The notes under the pieces: model-generated
The model's database searches: none
What the model saw: only the letters and a program-made list of their open reading frames with translations
What the model was told of the DNA's origin: nothing
In this document: piece after piece, positions 3,582 to 22,150 of the stretch
Layout of the letters: the number at the start of each line of letters is the position of its first letter
Position numbering within the stretch: position 1 is the stretch's first letter
Virus record (IMG/VR): IMGVR_UViG_3300033153_009814
Location: 1 to 24,697 of that record
DNA: 24,697 nt
Reading direction: 5' to 3' (one strand)
From: a virus
Position numbers and translations under genes: made by a program

Positions 3582-6128
3582 ATGGAAGAGAATTGTAAAG
3601 GGTGGGAGCGGCTGCGCGCGTATCAGAAAGAGGGAGCGCTAGCACTAGCTTCAGGTGAGAAAGTCGGCTTGTGCGTCTCCACGGGGTTGGGGAAGATGCA
3701 ACCACTAAGTGCAAGAATTCTTACGCCTTATGGTTGGGTTAGCATGGGCAAACTACGCTTAGGTGATAAGGTCGTGGACCCTGATGGGGGATACGGGCGC
3801 GTCATCGCTATTTACCCCAATGGAGAACAGGAGGTGTTTAGAGTCACCATGAAAGATGGGGGCTCAACTCTGTGTGGTGACAAACATCTGTGGCTTGTAC
3901 AAAATGCAACGGGTAAATGTAAAGGCATTGAACCCAAGGTTGTATCAACAAAAAAGATGCGTAAAAAAGGAGTCAAAACCCCACCAGCAAAAAATGGGTG
4001 GGCAAGGCACAAGTTTTTTATTCCAACATGTGATGTAGATTTTTACCCTTCACAGGCGCCGCTGCCTCTAAAGCCTTACTTGCTTGGTGTGATACTTGGT
4101 GACGCTTCAAGTGAAGAAAATAGTATTACACTGCATACCCCTGATGAGTACATAGTCAACAGGGTGATTGAGCTTTTGCCTTCTGGCACAAAACTGAATA
4201 AACATAAAAGTAAACGTGCGGGCGCTTGTGACGCATGGGGAATGGCAAGAGATGGTGTAGGAAGTGCTACACCAAATGCTGTTGTTGCAGCTTTCAAACT
4301 ACTTGGTCTTGCAGGAAAAAGATCTTGGGAGAAACACATTCCGATTATTTATCTTCGTACTTCCAAAGAGGAACGTATTGAGCTGCTGCGTGGTCTGATG
4401 GACACTGATGGAGATTGTAGTGCAGGGGGAGCAGGAAAAAAAACCAGTTGTGCTATTTTCAATACATCTTCAGAAATAATGGCATATCAAGTGCAAGAGC
4501 TTGTACGCGGTCTAGGTGGCATTGCTTCTTTGTCAGTAAAAGAAGAACCAAAGTATGCCTACAAAGGTGAAATTCTTACAGGGCGGCGTGCATATCGTGT
4601 AACAGTCCGTACTCCTTTCAATCCCTTTACGCTTCCAAAAAAGGCTGATCGCTATACAGAGCCTGGGCTTGCGCGTGCTATCGTTTCAATTGAGCCAGAG
4701 GGAACAGCGGTTTGTCAGTGCATCACGGTTACAACAAAGCGTAATTTGTATATTACAGATGACCACATTGTAACACATAACACGGCAAAGATTCTAGCAG
4801 CTTGGAGTAAGCATCCCGTCGGCCCCGTGCTAGTACTCACCAGAGCCATCGGGCGTCATGCATGGGTGCGCGATGCTGAGTGGGTGCTCGGAGAATCATG
4901 CGCTGAGTTGTGGGCAGGGAAGATTCACGGGAAGTCTGGCGTACATAAAGATGGAACCTTCACGTCACTAGAGAAGGCGTTGGAGGGTTCAAGATGGGTG
5001 GTAGCGAACTACGATATTGTAAAAGCGCGTTACGAGGAATTCTCAGCTATTAATTGGCAGTACCTGATACTAGATGAATCGCATGAGGTCAAACAAGGAT
5101 ATGCACCCCCGAAGCGCCTGGAATCGGGCGGCTACAAATGGCGCCGGTACGAGTACGTCAAGGCTCTTGCAGTACAGGTGCAAGCGCGCGGCGGGGTTGT
5201 CTGGATGCTAACAGCCACCCCAGTGCGAGATCGCGTACGAGACCTGTGGGCGCAGCTGAGTATCGTGCTACCAAAGGACCACCCTGAAAAGGGCAAGTTT
5301 GGGAAGTGGAATTGGCTCCATAAGTTTTGCGGAGCCAAGCGTAACGAGTGGGGAGGCTTGGATACCACCGGCAGCAGCAACGAGGAAATACTAGGGGCAT
5401 ACATCCAAAAGCACTTTGTTGTGTTACGGCGGCAGGACGTAGCGGACCAGATGCCGGCGCTACAACGAGAGATAAGAGTTGTAGAACCTCAGTGGAGCAA
5501 AAAGGGTGTGCGGCTTGGTGGTGGCATAGAAGCTGCAATAGATACTGCAGCCGTCATGAAGTTTGACGTTGCATGCGAGCTGGCGCTGGAGTACCTGTCA
5601 GGTGGTACCAAGGTCATACTCGTGGTGTCACGCCGGAAGCATGCTACAGCCCTCGGGATGCTGTTAGCGGAGAGATGTACCAAAGAGCTACACGCGCTCG
5701 TGAGGCGCAACCTATGGGCAGCTACGGTAACAGGCGCTACCGAGGTCCGCGCGCGCATGAAGGTATGTGGGGAGTTTCAGGCGCATCAGGGGCCGGGCGT
5801 GCTAGTGGCTACCATGGACTGCATATCGACGTCCATGGACCTACACACCGCTTCTGGGCTTATCTACGTCGCGCTTCCTTACACGTACCTGGGCGTAGTG
5901 CAGATGGAAGGGCGCGTTGGGCGTCTAGGTGGAGTACCGTGTACGATTACTTACCTGATTGCGAAACGAACCATTGACGAGCGGATCAAGTCTCTGTTAC
6001 TCTCCAAGTTGCGTGCGGTAGAGAACGTGGGGGCAGATACGCAGGGAGGAGAGGGGACGAAGGGAGTACTAGCAGGTGGATCAGATGCAGAAGTGTTGAA
6101 GGGTTTGAGGGATTGGCTAAACAAATGA
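3582..6128 (+). CDS. SNF2-family DNA helicase/translocase precursor with intein, 848 aa
   Basis: Residues 1-38 and 401-848 form a superfamily 2 helicase of the SNF2 type; residues 39-400 are an intein in the same frame. Removing it gives a 486-residue protein with motif I restored to STGLGKT. Other motifs are LRAYQKEGA (11-19), DESH Walker B (498-501), LTATP motif III (543-547), and in the second lobe VILVVSRRKHA and QMEGRVGR motif VI (774-781). SNF2-type phage helicases move on DNA and remodel forks or displace bound proteins. The start is preceded only by a G-run, a poorer ribosome site than those of most genes here. A small gene follows at once. Confidence 0.88.
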   Translation: MEENCKGWERLRAYQKEGALALASGEKVGLCVSTGLGKMQPLSARILTPYGWVSMGKLRLGDKVVDPDGGYGRVIAIYPNGEQEVFRVTMKDGGSTLCGDKHLWLVQNATGKCKGIEPKVVSTKKMRKKGVKTPPAKNGWARHKFFIPTCDVDFYPSQAPLPLKPYLLGVILGDASSEENSITLHTPDEYIVNRVIELLPSGTKLNKHKSKRAGACDAWGMARDGVGSATPNAVVAAFKLLGLAGKRSWEKHIPIIYLRTSKEERIELLRGLMDTDGDCSAGGAGKKTSCAIFNTSSEIMAYQVQELVRGLGGIASLSVKEEPKYAYKGEILTGRRAYRVTVRTPFNPFTLPKKADRYTEPGLARAIVSIEPEGTAVCQCITVTTKRNLYITDDHIVTHNTAKILAAWSKHPVGPVLVLTRAIGRHAWVRDAEWVLGESCAELWAGKIHGKSGVHKDGTFTSLEKALEGSRWVVANYDIVKARYEEFSAINWQYLILDESHEVKQGYAPPKRLESGGYKWRRYEYVKALAVQVQARGGVVWMLTATPVRDRVRDLWAQLSIVLPKDHPEKGKFGKWNWLHKFCGAKRNEWGGLDTTGSSNEEILGAYIQKHFVVLRRQDVADQMPALQREIRVVEPQWSKKGVRLGGGIEAAIDTAAVMKFDVACELALEYLSGGTKVILVVSRRKHATALGMLLAERCTKELHALVRRNLWAATVTGATEVRARMKVCGEFQAHQGPGVLVATMDCISTSMDLHTASGLIYVALPYTYLGVVQMEGRVGRLGGVPCTITYLIAKRTIDERIKSLLLSKLRAVENVGADTQGGEGTKGVLAGGSDAEVLKGLRDWLNK
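3696..4781 (+). mobile_element. LAGLIDADG intein inserted in helicase Walker A, 362 aa
   Basis: The insertion lies between Lys38 and Thr401 of the precursor, exactly inside GK-T of the P-loop, a favoured intein site. Splicing blocks are visible: N-terminal MQPLSARILTPYGW (39-52), block B GDKHLWLV with H102, and C-terminal NLYITDDHIVTHN ending at His399-Asn400 before Thr401. Two dodecapeptide motifs, LLGVILGDA (167-175) and LLRGLMDTDG (268-277), keep acidic residues D174 and D274/D276, so the homing endonuclease may be active. The DNA is visibly richer in A and in AAA codons than the flanking helicase, which suggests recent gain. The first residue is Met, not Cys, Ser or Ala. Confidence 0.9.
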
Positions 6129-8595: not shown

Positions 8596-8837
8596 AGAAT
8601 GAAAATGATTGGTCGTTTTTTGATACCGTCGGGATTGCTATGCGTAAGGCTGCCCAATTGGCATATGACGTAAGGGCCTTCGCAGAGGAGTGTGAAGAGC
8701 AGCGTAGCTTTGCTGGCATCGAGCATGACGCACTGCTGTATCGTCGAATGGTAGACTCGCTGGGGCGCGCTGAGAGAGCCCACGAGAAAGCAATGGAAGA
8801 GATGAAGCGTATACAGAGGGGGGAGGAAGAGGGCTAA
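8592..8837 (+). CDS. small helical hypothetical protein, 81 aa
   Basis: It is coupled to the upstream gene by ATGA at 8592-8595, with GAGGGAG inside that gene as its ribosome site. The sequence is helical and charged (AQLAYDVRAFAEECEEQR and RAERAHEKAMEEMKRIQRG). Its stop overlaps the radical SAM gene by one base (TAATG at 8835-8839), so any functional link between the two deserves attention. It lacks features of a peptide substrate such as a Cys-rich or Gly-rich core. Confidence 0.6.
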   Translation: MKNENDWSFFDTVGIAMRKAAQLAYDVRAFAEECEEQRSFAGIEHDALLYRRMVDSLGRAERAHEKAMEEMKRIQRGEEEG

Positions 8838-10342
8838 TGAGAGTACATTCGATCCGCGAGGGCCATGCCACTAACAGTAGTTCCTCACACTCTATCATCT
8901 GCATCCCAGATGGCATGGAGGTGCCGCATGATAAGGTGACTGGGGATTATGGATGGGAGCGCTTTACGCTGTCCTCTAGGCGCGAGAAGGCTACGTATAT
9001 GGCCTATCAACTGGCGCGAAATCTGTATGGCGTTCAGGAAAAAAGGGCGAAAGTGGCTGAGAAGTACGTGTATGATGCGACAGGAGAGAAGGTCGAAGTC
9101 TGTGAAGATGACTGGAGTGGTATTGATCACGAGAGTGTAATGAGTCTTCCCTCTGCTTTTGGTGCAACAAGCCGCGACCCTGTCAACTCATTCTTCCAAA
9201 ATCTGCTCACGTATGTGATGCGTGATGACGTAGTGATTCTTGGTGGTAATGACAACGGTGGTGAGCACTTTTTGGTTGAGGCACTAGGGGCTAAATCTGA
9301 CGACTGGAGTGATGAAGGAGAACGGCAAGAGAAGTTGAGGCAGAAGGAGTTGGGGTTTGGTTTCTTCAGTAACATGTTCTATGTCGAGCATGTGTATGAC
9401 GCAGAACAGAAGTGCCCGAGTGTAGTGTGCCGCTACGATCCTCAGTACCATTTCTGGACACTGTACGCGCCTTCAACGGGTAAGAAGATCCGCGTATCTT
9501 TCGCTCCTAAGCTGGATACGAAATACGCTGTTACGCGCGCTTCTGCCCCTGAGCTGGTAGACCTGAAAATCACCGACTACTGCACGCGCGGTTGCAAGTA
9601 CTGCTATCAATCATCTACCGCGAAGGGGGAGCACGCATCTCTGGAGAGTGTGACTGCAGTACTGCGAGACCTGGCTGATGCACATGTATTCGAGGTTGCG
9701 CTAGGCGGTGGCGAGCCTACACAGCATCCAGACTTCTGCGCTATCTTGCGTGCAGCTAAGGAGCTTGGTATCACGCCAAACTTCTCTACTGCACGGGTTG
9801 AGTGGATGCTTAATGAGAGTGTAGTGGCTGCAGTAAAAGAGTGCTGCGGGGCGTTTGCTGTGAGCGTAGATGAAAGTGGGCGGTATGGCTTGATGCAAGA
9901 GGCTTGTTGGTATGCGAAGGAAACCGGGCTTAAGAGTAAGCTGCGCTACCAGTATGTCATGGGGTCCGCACCGCGAGAGTGGTTCTGTAGAACGCTGCTC
10001 CCCTTCGTGCGTAACCATCAGGTTGGCCTAACGCTGCTAGCTCCAAAGTCGAAGGGGCTCGGAGGCGCGGCAGAGTGGCATGCCTTCTCTGGTTGGCTGA
10101 AAGATGTGAAGGCAGCAGAGGTGTATCGCTTCGGGATTGACACCGCGTTGGCTGCTATGTCAGTCGAGGCTCTGCAGGGAGAGGGAGTGGATGCGCGGTA
10201 TTACGAGGTCGAAGAGGGCCGTTTCTCCATGTATATCGACGCGGTACATGGGCGTGCGGGGCCTTCGTCATTCTGTGACGAGGGAGAGATGGTAGATTAT
10301 TTGGGGGATACGAGGGAAGTATTTGGTGGCTTCGGGGTATAA
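8837..10342 (+). CDS. radical SAM protein with TNSSSSHS N-terminal domain, 501 aa
   Basis: It starts at ATG 8837 behind GGAGGAAGAG. Residues 240 to about 460 form a radical SAM core. C249, C253 and C256 (CTRGCKYC) would hold the 4Fe-4S cluster and GGGEPTQHPDF (290-300) is the SAM-binding GGE motif. Residues 1-235 are a separate domain opening with EGHATNSSSSHSIICIP (Ser-rich motif at 12-19), then GWERFTL, DHESV and VVILGGNDNGGEH. I know similar sequence combinations in uncharacterised proteins but no proven function. It is too long for QueE and lacks the extra C-terminal Cys cluster of SPASM maturases. Enzymes of this core modify peptides, nucleotides or RNA; the substrate is unknown. Confidence 0.85.
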   Translation: MRVHSIREGHATNSSSSHSIICIPDGMEVPHDKVTGDYGWERFTLSSRREKATYMAYQLARNLYGVQEKRAKVAEKYVYDATGEKVEVCEDDWSGIDHESVMSLPSAFGATSRDPVNSFFQNLLTYVMRDDVVILGGNDNGGEHFLVEALGAKSDDWSDEGERQEKLRQKELGFGFFSNMFYVEHVYDAEQKCPSVVCRYDPQYHFWTLYAPSTGKKIRVSFAPKLDTKYAVTRASAPELVDLKITDYCTRGCKYCYQSSTAKGEHASLESVTAVLRDLADAHVFEVALGGGEPTQHPDFCAILRAAKELGITPNFSTARVEWMLNESVVAAVKECCGAFAVSVDESGRYGLMQEACWYAKETGLKSKLRYQYVMGSAPREWFCRTLLPFVRNHQVGLTLLAPKSKGLGGAAEWHAFSGWLKDVKAAEVYRFGIDTALAAMSVEALQGEGVDARYYEVEEGRFSMYIDAVHGRAGPSSFCDEGEMVDYLGDTREVFGGFGV

Positions 10343-19474: not shown

Positions 19475-19531
19475 GGGGCGAGAGTCATGTTAGGCTGCCT
19501 GGCTCTGCATGATTCTCGCCCCGTGTTTTTT
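19475..19531 (+). terminator. intrinsic terminator after the ssDNA-binding gene
   Basis: GGGGCGAGAGTCATG (19475-19489) and CATGATTCTCGCCCC (19508-19522) pair over 15 positions with one mismatch. An 18-base loop separates them, and GTGTTTTTT (19523-19531) follows. This is a textbook Rho-independent terminator, 20 bases after the stop codon. It overlaps the longest open frame of the polymerase, which argues for the later start at 19550. Confidence 0.85.
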
Positions 19532-19549
19532 GAGCTTTGGATAAGAGTA

Positions 19550-22150
19550 ATGTACAGACCCGAATTCACAATCCGCGATACTTACAAATACACTCCAGAA
19601 GACCACGGTTGTAGATGCGAAGAATGCCCGCTGTATGACGTCAGAAAAGCAAACCACTTCGTACCGCCGGAGGGCAATCCTGCAACAGCGCGCTTGACGG
19701 TAGTGGCGGAAGCTCCTGGACGCAACGAAGAAGAAATGAAGCGCCCGTTGGTTGGAGCTTCTGGCAACGAGTTTTCTCTGGCGCTGCGCATGGCGGGGCT
19801 TTCGCGTTCCTCCTGCTTTCTCACAAACGCGCTGTTGTGCCGCCCCCCTGGAGGCACGCTAAAGAAGTTTCTAGCCGGTCTAGGGGCGCGCAACCGGCGG
19901 CGTAAGGCACAAGGTAAGCCCCCAATCATCTCCCCCCTAGTGGCGTGTAGTGCGCGGTTGATGGCAGAGGTAGAGCAAGCCTCCGCGCTGTTGCTCATGG
20001 GGTCGGCTTCGCGCTCTGTTGTATACGGTGGTGGCGCGGGCTCGGAGAAGGGGCTCATGGGCTCGCGTGGCTTCCCGGATAAGGTGATGGTTGGAGAGAA
20101 AGAGATTCTTGCACTCTCCACCGTGCATCCCGCACACGCCTTGCGCGAGAGGCGTTGGATACCGATATTCCGTGCTGATGTTGCTAAGGCCGTGCGCATG
20201 GTCAAGGGAGCGCTGTCATGGGAGTACCCCAACAAAGTCTACTTCCCTACGCCAGACGAGCTGCGTGCTTCCTTGGGTAGGATGGAGGGGCAGATAGTTT
20301 CGTACGATGTTGAGACACGCCCGAAGGATTTCTCATACGGGCGTGGGCCTGAGAGCACCACGGATGTGTTGCGCTGCATTGGTATCGGTACCACAACAGA
20401 ATGTGTGTGTGTGCCCTTCGAGTCATGCGAGCCTGATAAGTGGGACCTTGGGTGGAGCGCGTGGTACTCGGCAGCAGAGTGGGGCGAGATACTTGACATC
20501 TTGCGCAAGTGGTTTGGTGATACAAGTGGAACGGTTTGTGCCCATAACGAGCAGTACGATAGATTAGTCATGCGCCACCAACTCCCCGACATCCCCATCA
20601 TGCGCCAAGTCTTTGATACAGTGATAGCGCACCATGTGGAGTTTTCAGAGTACCCCCATGGATTGAGTTTCCTGGAGTCACAGTTTACGGACGCAGCCCA
20701 GCATAAAGCAGTCAATCATGCGCGTTGGGAGTCGGACGAGGTATTGCACCGCTACTGCATGGATGACGTTGCAGTGACCTCTTTCTCTGCGGACGTACTG
20801 GCGCGCAAGCCCGGTTTTGTGGCGCAACGCAAAGTGTTTGGTGTAGACATGTGGCTGTCGAAATTCTGCCGCGAGTTGCATGATATTGGCATCGGGTTTG
20901 ATGTACAAGAAAGGGATAGACACTATGTTGACCTCTCAGGTAAAATGGAGAAAGCTCTTGCTAAATTTCGGGCGTACGCTGCTCGCTCTGCTGGTCTTTT
21001 TGGTGCGTCTACTGATTCGTTTCTTGAGACGCTAAATCCTAGCTCCCCGCAGCAAGTGAGAAAGTTCTTGTTTGAGTACTGCGGGTTGGAGCCAGTACCG
21101 GCGGACGCGGGTGGATTCACGGATAGCGGAGACCCTTCTGTGTCGCGCGATAACCTACTGTTCCTGATTGATAGAGGGCTGCCGGAAGAGGTAGAGGAAT
21201 GCTTGCAGTACCTGATTGACTTCAGGGAAGCGTCGAAGATGCGCGGTACGTACTGCACGATTGAACCATGTGCAGATGGCAGGGTGAGGGCTAATTGGAA
21301 TCCGCATGTAGTGGTATCGGGGAGGTTGTCAACGTCTAGTCCGAATCTGCTGAATATCAAGGGCGCCATGCGCTCCATGTACTACGCTCAAGAGGGGCAT
21401 GAGCTAGTGTTTTGCGATAAGGGGCAGTTGGAGTTGCGTATCATTGCGTGGGAAGCCCAAGACAAAGAACTAATTGACGTGTTTTTGACTGGTGCTGATG
21501 TACACATTGTGAACACAGCAGCCATTCTTGGCATAGGGGTCGATGAAGTAACAAAGCAAGAGCGGAAGTTTGGTAAGACCTTCACCTACGCGGTGCAATA
21601 TGGTGCGGCGGCAGAGAAAGCGTGGCGCATGGTGCGTAACTTTCGCGCACCCGATGGTTCACGCCCCTACAAGTCGTTTACTCTAGAGGAGTCTCTACGC
21701 GCGTTTGAACAGTGGTGGAGAGCGCGAAAGGCGCTCAAAACGTATCATCGGCGCAACAGAGAGTTTTGGCGAGAGCATGGATATATCGAAGATGCCCTGC
21801 ATGGAAGGCGGCGGTATTTCTTGGATGGAGAGGACCCTGAAGCTATGAGTAACTTCCCGATCCAATGCTCGGGTGCCTCAGATGTAAATGATGCAATGCG
21901 ACGAGTTGCTGATGTATATCCATGGCATAGCCTCGGAAAGAACACCGGGCTGGTGCATTACAACTACGATTCAATTGGACTTGAGGTACCTCTTGGAATG
22001 GGCCTAGAAGTAGGCGCTCACGTTGTAGAGCTAATGCATTCACAAATCGGAGATATGCCACTGCCAGTGGATTTGGGCATTGGACCCAACTGGTACGCTT
22101 TGACAGAGTACGAGCAATCACCTGATGGCACTTGGACAGCAAAGGAATAA
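19550..22150 (+). CDS. uracil-DNA glycosylase/family A DNA polymerase fusion, 866 aa
   Basis: I chose ATG 19550 because the frame's earlier ATG (19487) lies in the terminator stem. Residues 1-215 are a family 4 uracil-DNA glycosylase: four Cys for an Fe-S cluster (C23, C26, C97, C133), EAPG (54-57), VHPAHALR (192-199). Residues 245-410 are a 3'-5' exonuclease with D253/E255, D337 and Y402/D406. The polymerase has SGRLST (590-595), motif A DKGQLELR (623-630), motif B R672-K676-Y680-YG, and motif C YNYDS (804-808). A Tyr stands where E. coli has F762, and the usual HDE is YDS. The glycosylase fusion is known in SPO1-like phage polymerases and could check the template for uracil. Confidence 0.9.
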   Translation: MYRPEFTIRDTYKYTPEDHGCRCEECPLYDVRKANHFVPPEGNPATARLTVVAEAPGRNEEEMKRPLVGASGNEFSLALRMAGLSRSSCFLTNALLCRPPGGTLKKFLAGLGARNRRRKAQGKPPIISPLVACSARLMAEVEQASALLLMGSASRSVVYGGGAGSEKGLMGSRGFPDKVMVGEKEILALSTVHPAHALRERRWIPIFRADVAKAVRMVKGALSWEYPNKVYFPTPDELRASLGRMEGQIVSYDVETRPKDFSYGRGPESTTDVLRCIGIGTTTECVCVPFESCEPDKWDLGWSAWYSAAEWGEILDILRKWFGDTSGTVCAHNEQYDRLVMRHQLPDIPIMRQVFDTVIAHHVEFSEYPHGLSFLESQFTDAAQHKAVNHARWESDEVLHRYCMDDVAVTSFSADVLARKPGFVAQRKVFGVDMWLSKFCRELHDIGIGFDVQERDRHYVDLSGKMEKALAKFRAYAARSAGLFGASTDSFLETLNPSSPQQVRKFLFEYCGLEPVPADAGGFTDSGDPSVSRDNLLFLIDRGLPEEVEECLQYLIDFREASKMRGTYCTIEPCADGRVRANWNPHVVVSGRLSTSSPNLLNIKGAMRSMYYAQEGHELVFCDKGQLELRIIAWEAQDKELIDVFLTGADVHIVNTAAILGIGVDEVTKQERKFGKTFTYAVQYGAAAEKAWRMVRNFRAPDGSRPYKSFTLEESLRAFEQWWRARKALKTYHRRNREFWREHGYIEDALHGRRRYFLDGEDPEAMSNFPIQCSGASDVNDAMRRVADVYPWHSLGKNTGLVHYNYDSIGLEVPLGMGLEVGAHVVELMHSQIGDMPLPVDLGIGPNWYALTEYEQSPDGTWTAKE

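Follow-up and report, generated by a model that had tools for sequence, protein, structure and literature searches.

The stretch of DNA analyzed here, referred to as the window, is the 24.7-kb viral record IMG/VR IMGVR_UViG_3300033153_009814, which is probably a fragment. Among its replication and recombination genes lies a gene that joins a domain with an Asn-Ser-Ser-Ser (NSSS) motif to a radical SAM (rSAM) enzyme in a single chain (Table 1). Elsewhere in the window, an SNF2-type helicase (3582-6128, + strand) is split by an apparent intein, an insert of ~350 residues with a LAGLIDADG domain that starts directly after the GLGK of the SNF2 P-loop and whose last letters, VTHN, stand just ahead of the resumed helicase sequence. 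Farther along (19487-22150, + strand), a uracil-DNA glycosylase domain (PF03167) is fused N-terminally to a family A DNA polymerase (PF00476).

Table 1. Features of the fusion gene, in window coordinates
Feature	Position	Strand	Basis
NSSS-motif domain + rSAM fusion gene (ATG start, 501 aa)	8837..10342	+	Full-length homologues exist
Purine-rich Shine-Dalgarno-like stretch, just 5' of the start codon	8820..8829	+	Sequence
ATNSSSSHS motif, residues 11-19; proposed modified loop	8867..8893	+	Invariant N-S-S-S-x-H; low pLDDT
Partner domain, residues 1 to about 145	8837..9271	+	hhalign to phrog_28997-type phage motif proteins
DHES, residues 97-100; DH[EQ]S in partner domain	9125..9136	+	Conserved in alignments
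ILGGNDN, residues 134-140; [GD]NDN in partner domain	9236..9256	+	Conserved in alignments
Radical SAM enzyme part, residues 197-501, with preceding beta hairpin	9425..10339	+	PF04055; AF2; fold matches
CxxxCxxC, C249/C253/C256; predicted ligands of a single [4Fe-4S] cluster	9581..9604	+	Sole conserved Cys in fused family
GGGEP SAM-binding motif, residues 290-294	9704..9718	+	Sequence; alignment

The C-terminal radical SAM core recognized in the initial annotation is borne out by its canonical cysteine and GGGEP motifs and by a match of PF04055 to residues 244-345 (3.9e-12; 47.1 bits against a cut-off of 29.5). Across an alignment of 29 fused proteins (the window protein and 28 homologues with 27-37% identity to it), the three cysteines are invariant, as are P238, L240, D242, K244, Y257, Q258, S260, T261, A288, the GGGE of the SAM-binding motif, P298, T318, L401, K404, D435, G461, S464, Y466, S477, and S478. 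The C terminus of the fused family lacks the cysteines of SPASM or twitch auxiliary clusters; the bacterial sister enzymes described below match PF13186 and have a SPASM domain, with ten conserved cysteines. Two viral enzymes of the class whose motif reads NSSSxSF (L012 and L092) carry GAD in place of GGGEP, an unusual change at the SAM site of otherwise conserved enzymes.

In the AF2 model of the window protein (mean pLDDT 81, pTM 0.81), most of the enzyme part exceeds a pLDDT of 90. Its start lies at about residue 197, in a beta hairpin also present in small rSAMs, so the initial annotation was right to see a distinct N-terminal domain but drew it too long at 235 residues. The nearest solved folds of the enzyme part are the peptide maturases SuiB (Z 22.7; structural alignment beginning at model residue 104-114) and SkfB (Z 21.3), with viperin (Z about 19), PqqE, and anSME as further matches. 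Within the whole-chain model, the predicted order of helices and strands in the enzyme's N-terminal part does not obviously follow that of a RiPP recognition element (RRE). Profile searches placed the enzyme in none of the families named by the models that we consulted: NrdG2, MoaA, and HxsC models scored far below their cut-offs (for HxsC, 20.3 bits against 267.9), the viperin model NF038283 gave 32.5 bits against a cut-off of 180, no NCBIfam maturase model reached its own cut-off, no QueE model was among the 25 best of 48, and a PHROG QueE-like profile gave an E value of 0.3. The earlier statement that the protein does not resemble QueE, NrdG, or a SPASM maturase thus holds for the profile scores and for the missing SPASM cysteines of the fused enzymes, but it needs qualifying in that the nearest folds are peptide maturases and the bacterial sister enzymes do carry SPASM.

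Residues 1-235 have no Pfam or NCBIfam match, also when queried alone. A phmmer match of residues 132-223 to designed Kelch propellers (~1e-13) was taken as chance because no Pfam Kelch model matched and the GG/W spacing is lost in homologues. The serine motif itself is anything but random, as N-S-S-S-x-H is invariant across the 28 diverse fused homologues. Invariant positions in the N-terminal part of the 29 aligned proteins are R7, A11, N13, S14, S15, S16, H18, F43, G136, G137, and D139; nearly invariant are G9, S19, G39, K51, Y54, D97, H98, S100, and N140, of which D97, H98, S100, and N140 are kept in at least 90% of the proteins. The fused family is mainly phage. Salmonella phage Arash gp146c, annotated "methyltransferase," matches the window protein over its full length (31% identity), and a protein of Methylobacterium indicum plasmid pVL1_2 is the one full-length match on a plasmid; each comprises both halves and reproduces the motif letter for letter. 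The idea of a glycyl-radical activase was dropped, the Gly preceding the motif being unconserved in the FETNSSS class.

The N-terminal domain, of unknown function in the initial annotation, is not an orphan. Stand-alone phage motif proteins of a phrog_28997-like family, encoded beside separate rSAMs of ~300 aa, contain FGW, K..Y, DHQS, and NDN, ordered as in the window domain, and with the motif removed hhalign still aligns the two with a probability of 98.7 (E 2.2e-16). Because this homology does not depend on the motif, the window protein amounts to a two-gene pair in one chain.

The motif also accompanies the enzyme far beyond the fused family. A viral scan with a single protein query gave no matches, and one with an alignment of the rSAM alone gave 80 viral loci. 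Nearly all of these have a motif open reading frame (ORF), which is either part of the rSAM gene or a gene of its own, located upstream in the same orientation. By strict count 29 loci are fused, and 2 more are fused with longer N termini (L043 and L052); in 40 a separate motif gene precedes the rSAM on its strand at a distance of up to 1.2 kb, and in 5 it lies elsewhere in the locus, beyond that limit; 1 is truncated at a contig end (L041); and 3 (L049, L050, and L070) have no motif ORF nearby. No motif ORF was found on the opposite strand in the 80 loci. The rSAM relatives at L049, L050, and L070 have long N termini or long branches. At L036 (7454-8783), the motif domain and the rSAM occupy two overlapping frames instead of one ORF, which may reflect a frameshift, an assembly error, or a natural split. 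An informal negative control comes from other rSAMs, apparently of different subfamilies, around which a 4-kb range holds no motif ORF: those of Thermus phage phiYS40, Citrobacter phage Miller, Escherichia marmotae, Deinococcus, and P. sordellii plasmids.

The motif follows the consensus N-S-S-S-[TS]-[HS]-[SF], with the Asn and the three Ser conserved at 98-100% in each of three classes. In the pairs, N-S-S-S-x-[HS] stands within ~25 residues of the start of a protein fused or adjacent to this rSAM family. The phage motif proteins are ~95-300 aa long with one N-terminal NSSSxHS each, and, together with the phage rSAMs, fall in or near phrog_16999, phrog_28997, phrog_7293, and phrog_7397. BLASTP with the motif removed gave, in the motif clusters, at least one further sequence group, a recurrent family that ends in TT.SGDKIVAFGYYGYDG, and a singleton; the sole feature common to all motif proteins is the motif. 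Some loci hold clusters of motif genes with one rSAM, up to six motif proteins in L093 (3368-6657) and others in L075, L078, L083, and L088. A motif protein of L092, of the other class, also ends in THFGAGRDG.

The association held when the search was run from the motif. An rSAM is encoded in 47 of 50 viral records picked by a VFETNSSSTHS DNA pattern, leaving 3 without one, and in 35 of 50 picked by the KIRNGFVSNSSSSSF pattern; many of the 15 NSSSSSF-motif records without a detectable rSAM are fragments, and some exceed 200 kb. Among random viral records, chosen by random 14/15-mers, the count was 0 of 50, a control somewhat weakened by these records being smaller on average than the motif records, although several exceed 100 kb. 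Of 121 rSAM loci, 114 contain a motif ORF; of 141 random viral stretches, 4 do, none of them with the flanking consensus. In 23 viral records of 49-452 kb, all FETNSSSxHS copies (1-5 per record) map to the rSAM locus, and the pattern in reverse had no match there or elsewhere in these records. In 28 fused-type records, NSSSxHS occurs in the fused ORF itself, with extra matches only at about the control rate. The fused enzymes therefore seem to have no other partner, in keeping with the suggestion in the initial annotation of an enzyme that modifies itself.

Whole bacterial genomes gave the same picture. In each of 26, the NSSSxSF pattern is either absent or present a single time, at the rSAM locus. 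Among 149 Bacteroidales genomes, motif and rSAM were present in the same 3, one of which was the seed, and stand side by side in the other two. Among 289 Alphaproteobacteria, the rSAM was found in the seed and in one further genome (G624), which the tight motif pattern missed; on reading the locus, MKIRFDFVTNSSSSSFV lies directly downstream of the rSAM.

In plasmids of rhizobia and Rhodobacter, a small ORF starting MKIKMDFVSNSSSTSF is followed directly by a separate rSAM gene. In a bacterial sample drawn with CYK-type enzymes only, the rSAM gene is immediately preceded by the motif gene in 40 of 41 loci, the exception being cut by a contig end (a 42nd row, a weak match, was left out). These loci come from Pseudomonadota, Bacteroidota, Campylobacterota, Thermodesulfobacteriota, Spirochaetota, Nitrospirota, Acidobacteriota, and Cyanobacteriota. 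One rSAM locus is on a contig labelled Micrarchaeota, and in L519 the gene order is swapped. The bacterial motif protein (~132 aa) starts MKI[KR]xDFV[ST]NSSSTSF. Its body shows no homology to the phage partner domain (hhalign probability 0.4), and a fold search with it gave no match at an E value below 0.001. No curated family covers the motif proteins; the phage families that exist have no assigned function.

The distribution bears on the proposal that the N-terminal domain recognizes a host protein or nucleotide that the rSAM alters during infection, which the initial annotation had raised. The location of the phage gene among replication genes would suit such a role, but motif and enzyme also lie next to each other on bacterial chromosomes and plasmids, nothing that we found ties the domain to a host target, and we saw no sign that a nucleotide or an unrelated host protein is acted on; we regard this explanation as very improbable.

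In bacteria the pair belongs to a conserved operon that encodes a large NTPase, a ~125-aa protein, the motif protein, and the SPASM rSAM. A profile derived from the NTPase matched 43 loci, and the ~125-aa protein is present in 41. The sampled NTPases match PADLOC Avs2 (1e-20 to 1e-71), and both of the two alphaproteobacterial NTPases scanned carry Pfam SMEK_N. Phocaeicola-type loci have a different NTPase, placed downstream. No PADLOC model matched the ~125-aa protein or the NSSS protein. The Avs2/SMEK-type STAND NTPase operon suggests that the bacterial versions serve in antiphage defense. Because the NSSSxHS phage loci have no STAND NTPase, we make this suggestion for the bacterial form only. 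Loci L336-L376, L005-L008, L520, and L521, which span many phyla, are candidate antiphage operons.

Motif type and enzyme phylogeny go together. In a tree of 135 rSAM domains (midpoint root; quick search without bootstrap), the NSSSxHS enzymes (33 fused and 25 separate) split from the NSSSxSF enzymes (39 bacterial and 35 viral, the viral sample having been picked mostly by its motif) with a support of 99. Within the fused enzymes is nested the separate E class, which forms a single clade (support 100). The tree requires 6 changes of motif-type label versus a mean of 75 for shuffled labels, again with a viral NSSSxSF sample mostly chosen by motif. It is conceivable that two functionally unrelated genes merely hitch-hike in a common mobile cassette, such as phages and plasmids spread, but we give this almost no credence: the linkage is kept at low identity, with unrelated partners, across phyla and on the contig labelled archaeal, in swapped order and as a fusion; enzyme clade and motif type agree; and the reverse tests on viral records and the bacterial genome scans disfavor it.

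Structure predictions place the motif in a similar setting in two unrelated folds. Residues 11-23 of the window model have a pLDDT below 50 and are flanked by strands 2-7 and 19-22; in the model of a bacterial motif protein, residues 6-11 have a pLDDT below 50 and the motif lies between strands 2-7 and 14-20. Both models thus show the motif as a loop of low confidence that connects two strands near the N terminus. The AF2 models, which contain neither cluster nor SAM and in which the loop is of low confidence, do not place the loop in the active site.

From these observations we infer that the motif is the substrate. The rSAM probably modifies the NSSS loop covalently, which would make the window protein an enzyme fused to its own substrate. 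The notion in the initial annotation that the serine motif is a recognition tag or a modified segment recurring at the starts of unrelated proteins is well served by the linkage data. Several points count against loop modification: the modeled loop is not in the active site, some motif-bearing viral records have no detectable rSAM, three viral rSAMs have no motif nearby, the phage enzymes lack the auxiliary clusters used by many peptide-oxidizing rSAMs, and viperin, a nucleotide enzyme, is among the high-scoring structures. The viperin match would favor a different arrangement, in which the loop is an unmodified docking element, the partner domain is a regulatory or substrate-binding subunit, and the rSAM acts on a small molecule, as viperin does on CTP. 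Weak matches of the bacterial rSAMs to PADLOC pVip (1e-11 to 1e-13) point the same way, and the polar DH[EQ]S and NDN of the partner domain could build a small-molecule site. Yet SuiB and SkfB fit the shape better, the viperin model falls far short of its cut-off, several unrelated partner families share the motif alone, and a core of three invariant serines resembles a chemical target more than a docking code. We therefore consider docking improbable.

Covalent modification of the loop, which we favor, includes a special case in which the rSAM would install a catalytic cofactor that activates partner enzymes, such as formylglycine or an electrophile of the pyruvoyl/MIO type derived from the serines. 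The conserved polar residues K51, Y54, D97, H98, D139, and N140 of the partner domain and the location of the Ser-rich loop between strands are consistent with this version. We nevertheless think it rather unlikely, as the motif occurs on unrelated partners that have no common active-site pattern and the phage enzyme, unlike anaerobic sulfatase maturases, has no auxiliary cluster.

As to mechanism, the [4Fe-4S] cluster would cleave SAM to a 5'-deoxyadenosyl radical. This radical would remove a hydrogen from the NSSSxHS loop, with the three invariant serines as the likeliest sites, and so leave the loop changed by oxidation, dehydration, epimerization, or a crosslink. In the window phage, where loop and enzyme share one chain, the reaction would take place in cis or inside an oligomer; enzymes of this type in other phages would work in trans on one to about six neighboring motif proteins; and in bacteria the SPASM-bearing sister clade would act on the NSSSTSF protein beside the STAND immune-type NTPase. 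The products of the single-cluster phage enzyme and the SPASM-bearing bacterial enzyme may be alike or different. Our working guess as to purpose is that the modified loop would be a docking tag or an installed cofactor that activates the partner protein. More tentatively, and less probably than not, these systems could form a general posttranslational modification system of phages and bacteria, in which unrelated proteins have an N-terminal Asn-Ser-Ser-Ser loop modified by one rSAM family, arming a STAND antiphage operon in bacteria and acting in phages on small proteins or in cis, possibly for counter-defense.

If loop modification is correct, it would explain why the NSSS start recurs on unrelated phage and bacterial proteins, as the target of one enzyme family, and it could reveal a new protein modification. 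It also makes what was an orphan motif part of an enzyme-substrate pair that can be tested, for which the one-chain versions (Arash gp146c and the window protein) are convenient, and it singles out a candidate antiphage operon in which an Avs2/SMEK-type STAND NTPase is combined with a maturase and a tag protein.

We found no description of the NSSS motif, or of SMEK with radical SAM, in open-access full text; an earlier description elsewhere is possible. The annotations of the relevant phage families (phrog_16999, phrog_28997, phrog_7293, and phrog_7397) read Fe-S oxidoreductase or unknown and mention no link among them. Likeness to Avs2-type STAND and SMEK-domain proteins is confined to the NTPase of the bacterial operons. 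With viperin and prokaryotic viperins the window enzyme shares a single-cluster radical SAM fold, but it scores far below the viperin model's cut-off and has an NSSS partner. The His-Xaa-Ser system (HxsA with HxsB/HxsC) is similar in that a short His/Ser motif protein is paired with radical SAM enzymes. HxsA is laid out as HxS repeats; the motif proteins here have no repeats of that type and carry NSSSxHS once, at the N terminus. Another close system is that of the maturases of ribosomally synthesized and posttranslationally modified peptides (RiPPs) SuiB, SkfB, and CteB, which offer the nearest folds, a small motif-protein gene beside the enzyme, and the action on a peptide segment that we propose. 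They differ in that the motif here is N-terminal on folded, otherwise unrelated proteins with no leader/core layout seen, that the phage enzymes lack SPASM cysteines, and that substrate and enzyme are fused in the window protein. In sum, radical SAM enzymes that act on peptide segments are a known kind. What appears to be new is the motif targeted, its fusion to the enzyme, its occurrence on unrelated proteins, and the setting in a STAND operon.
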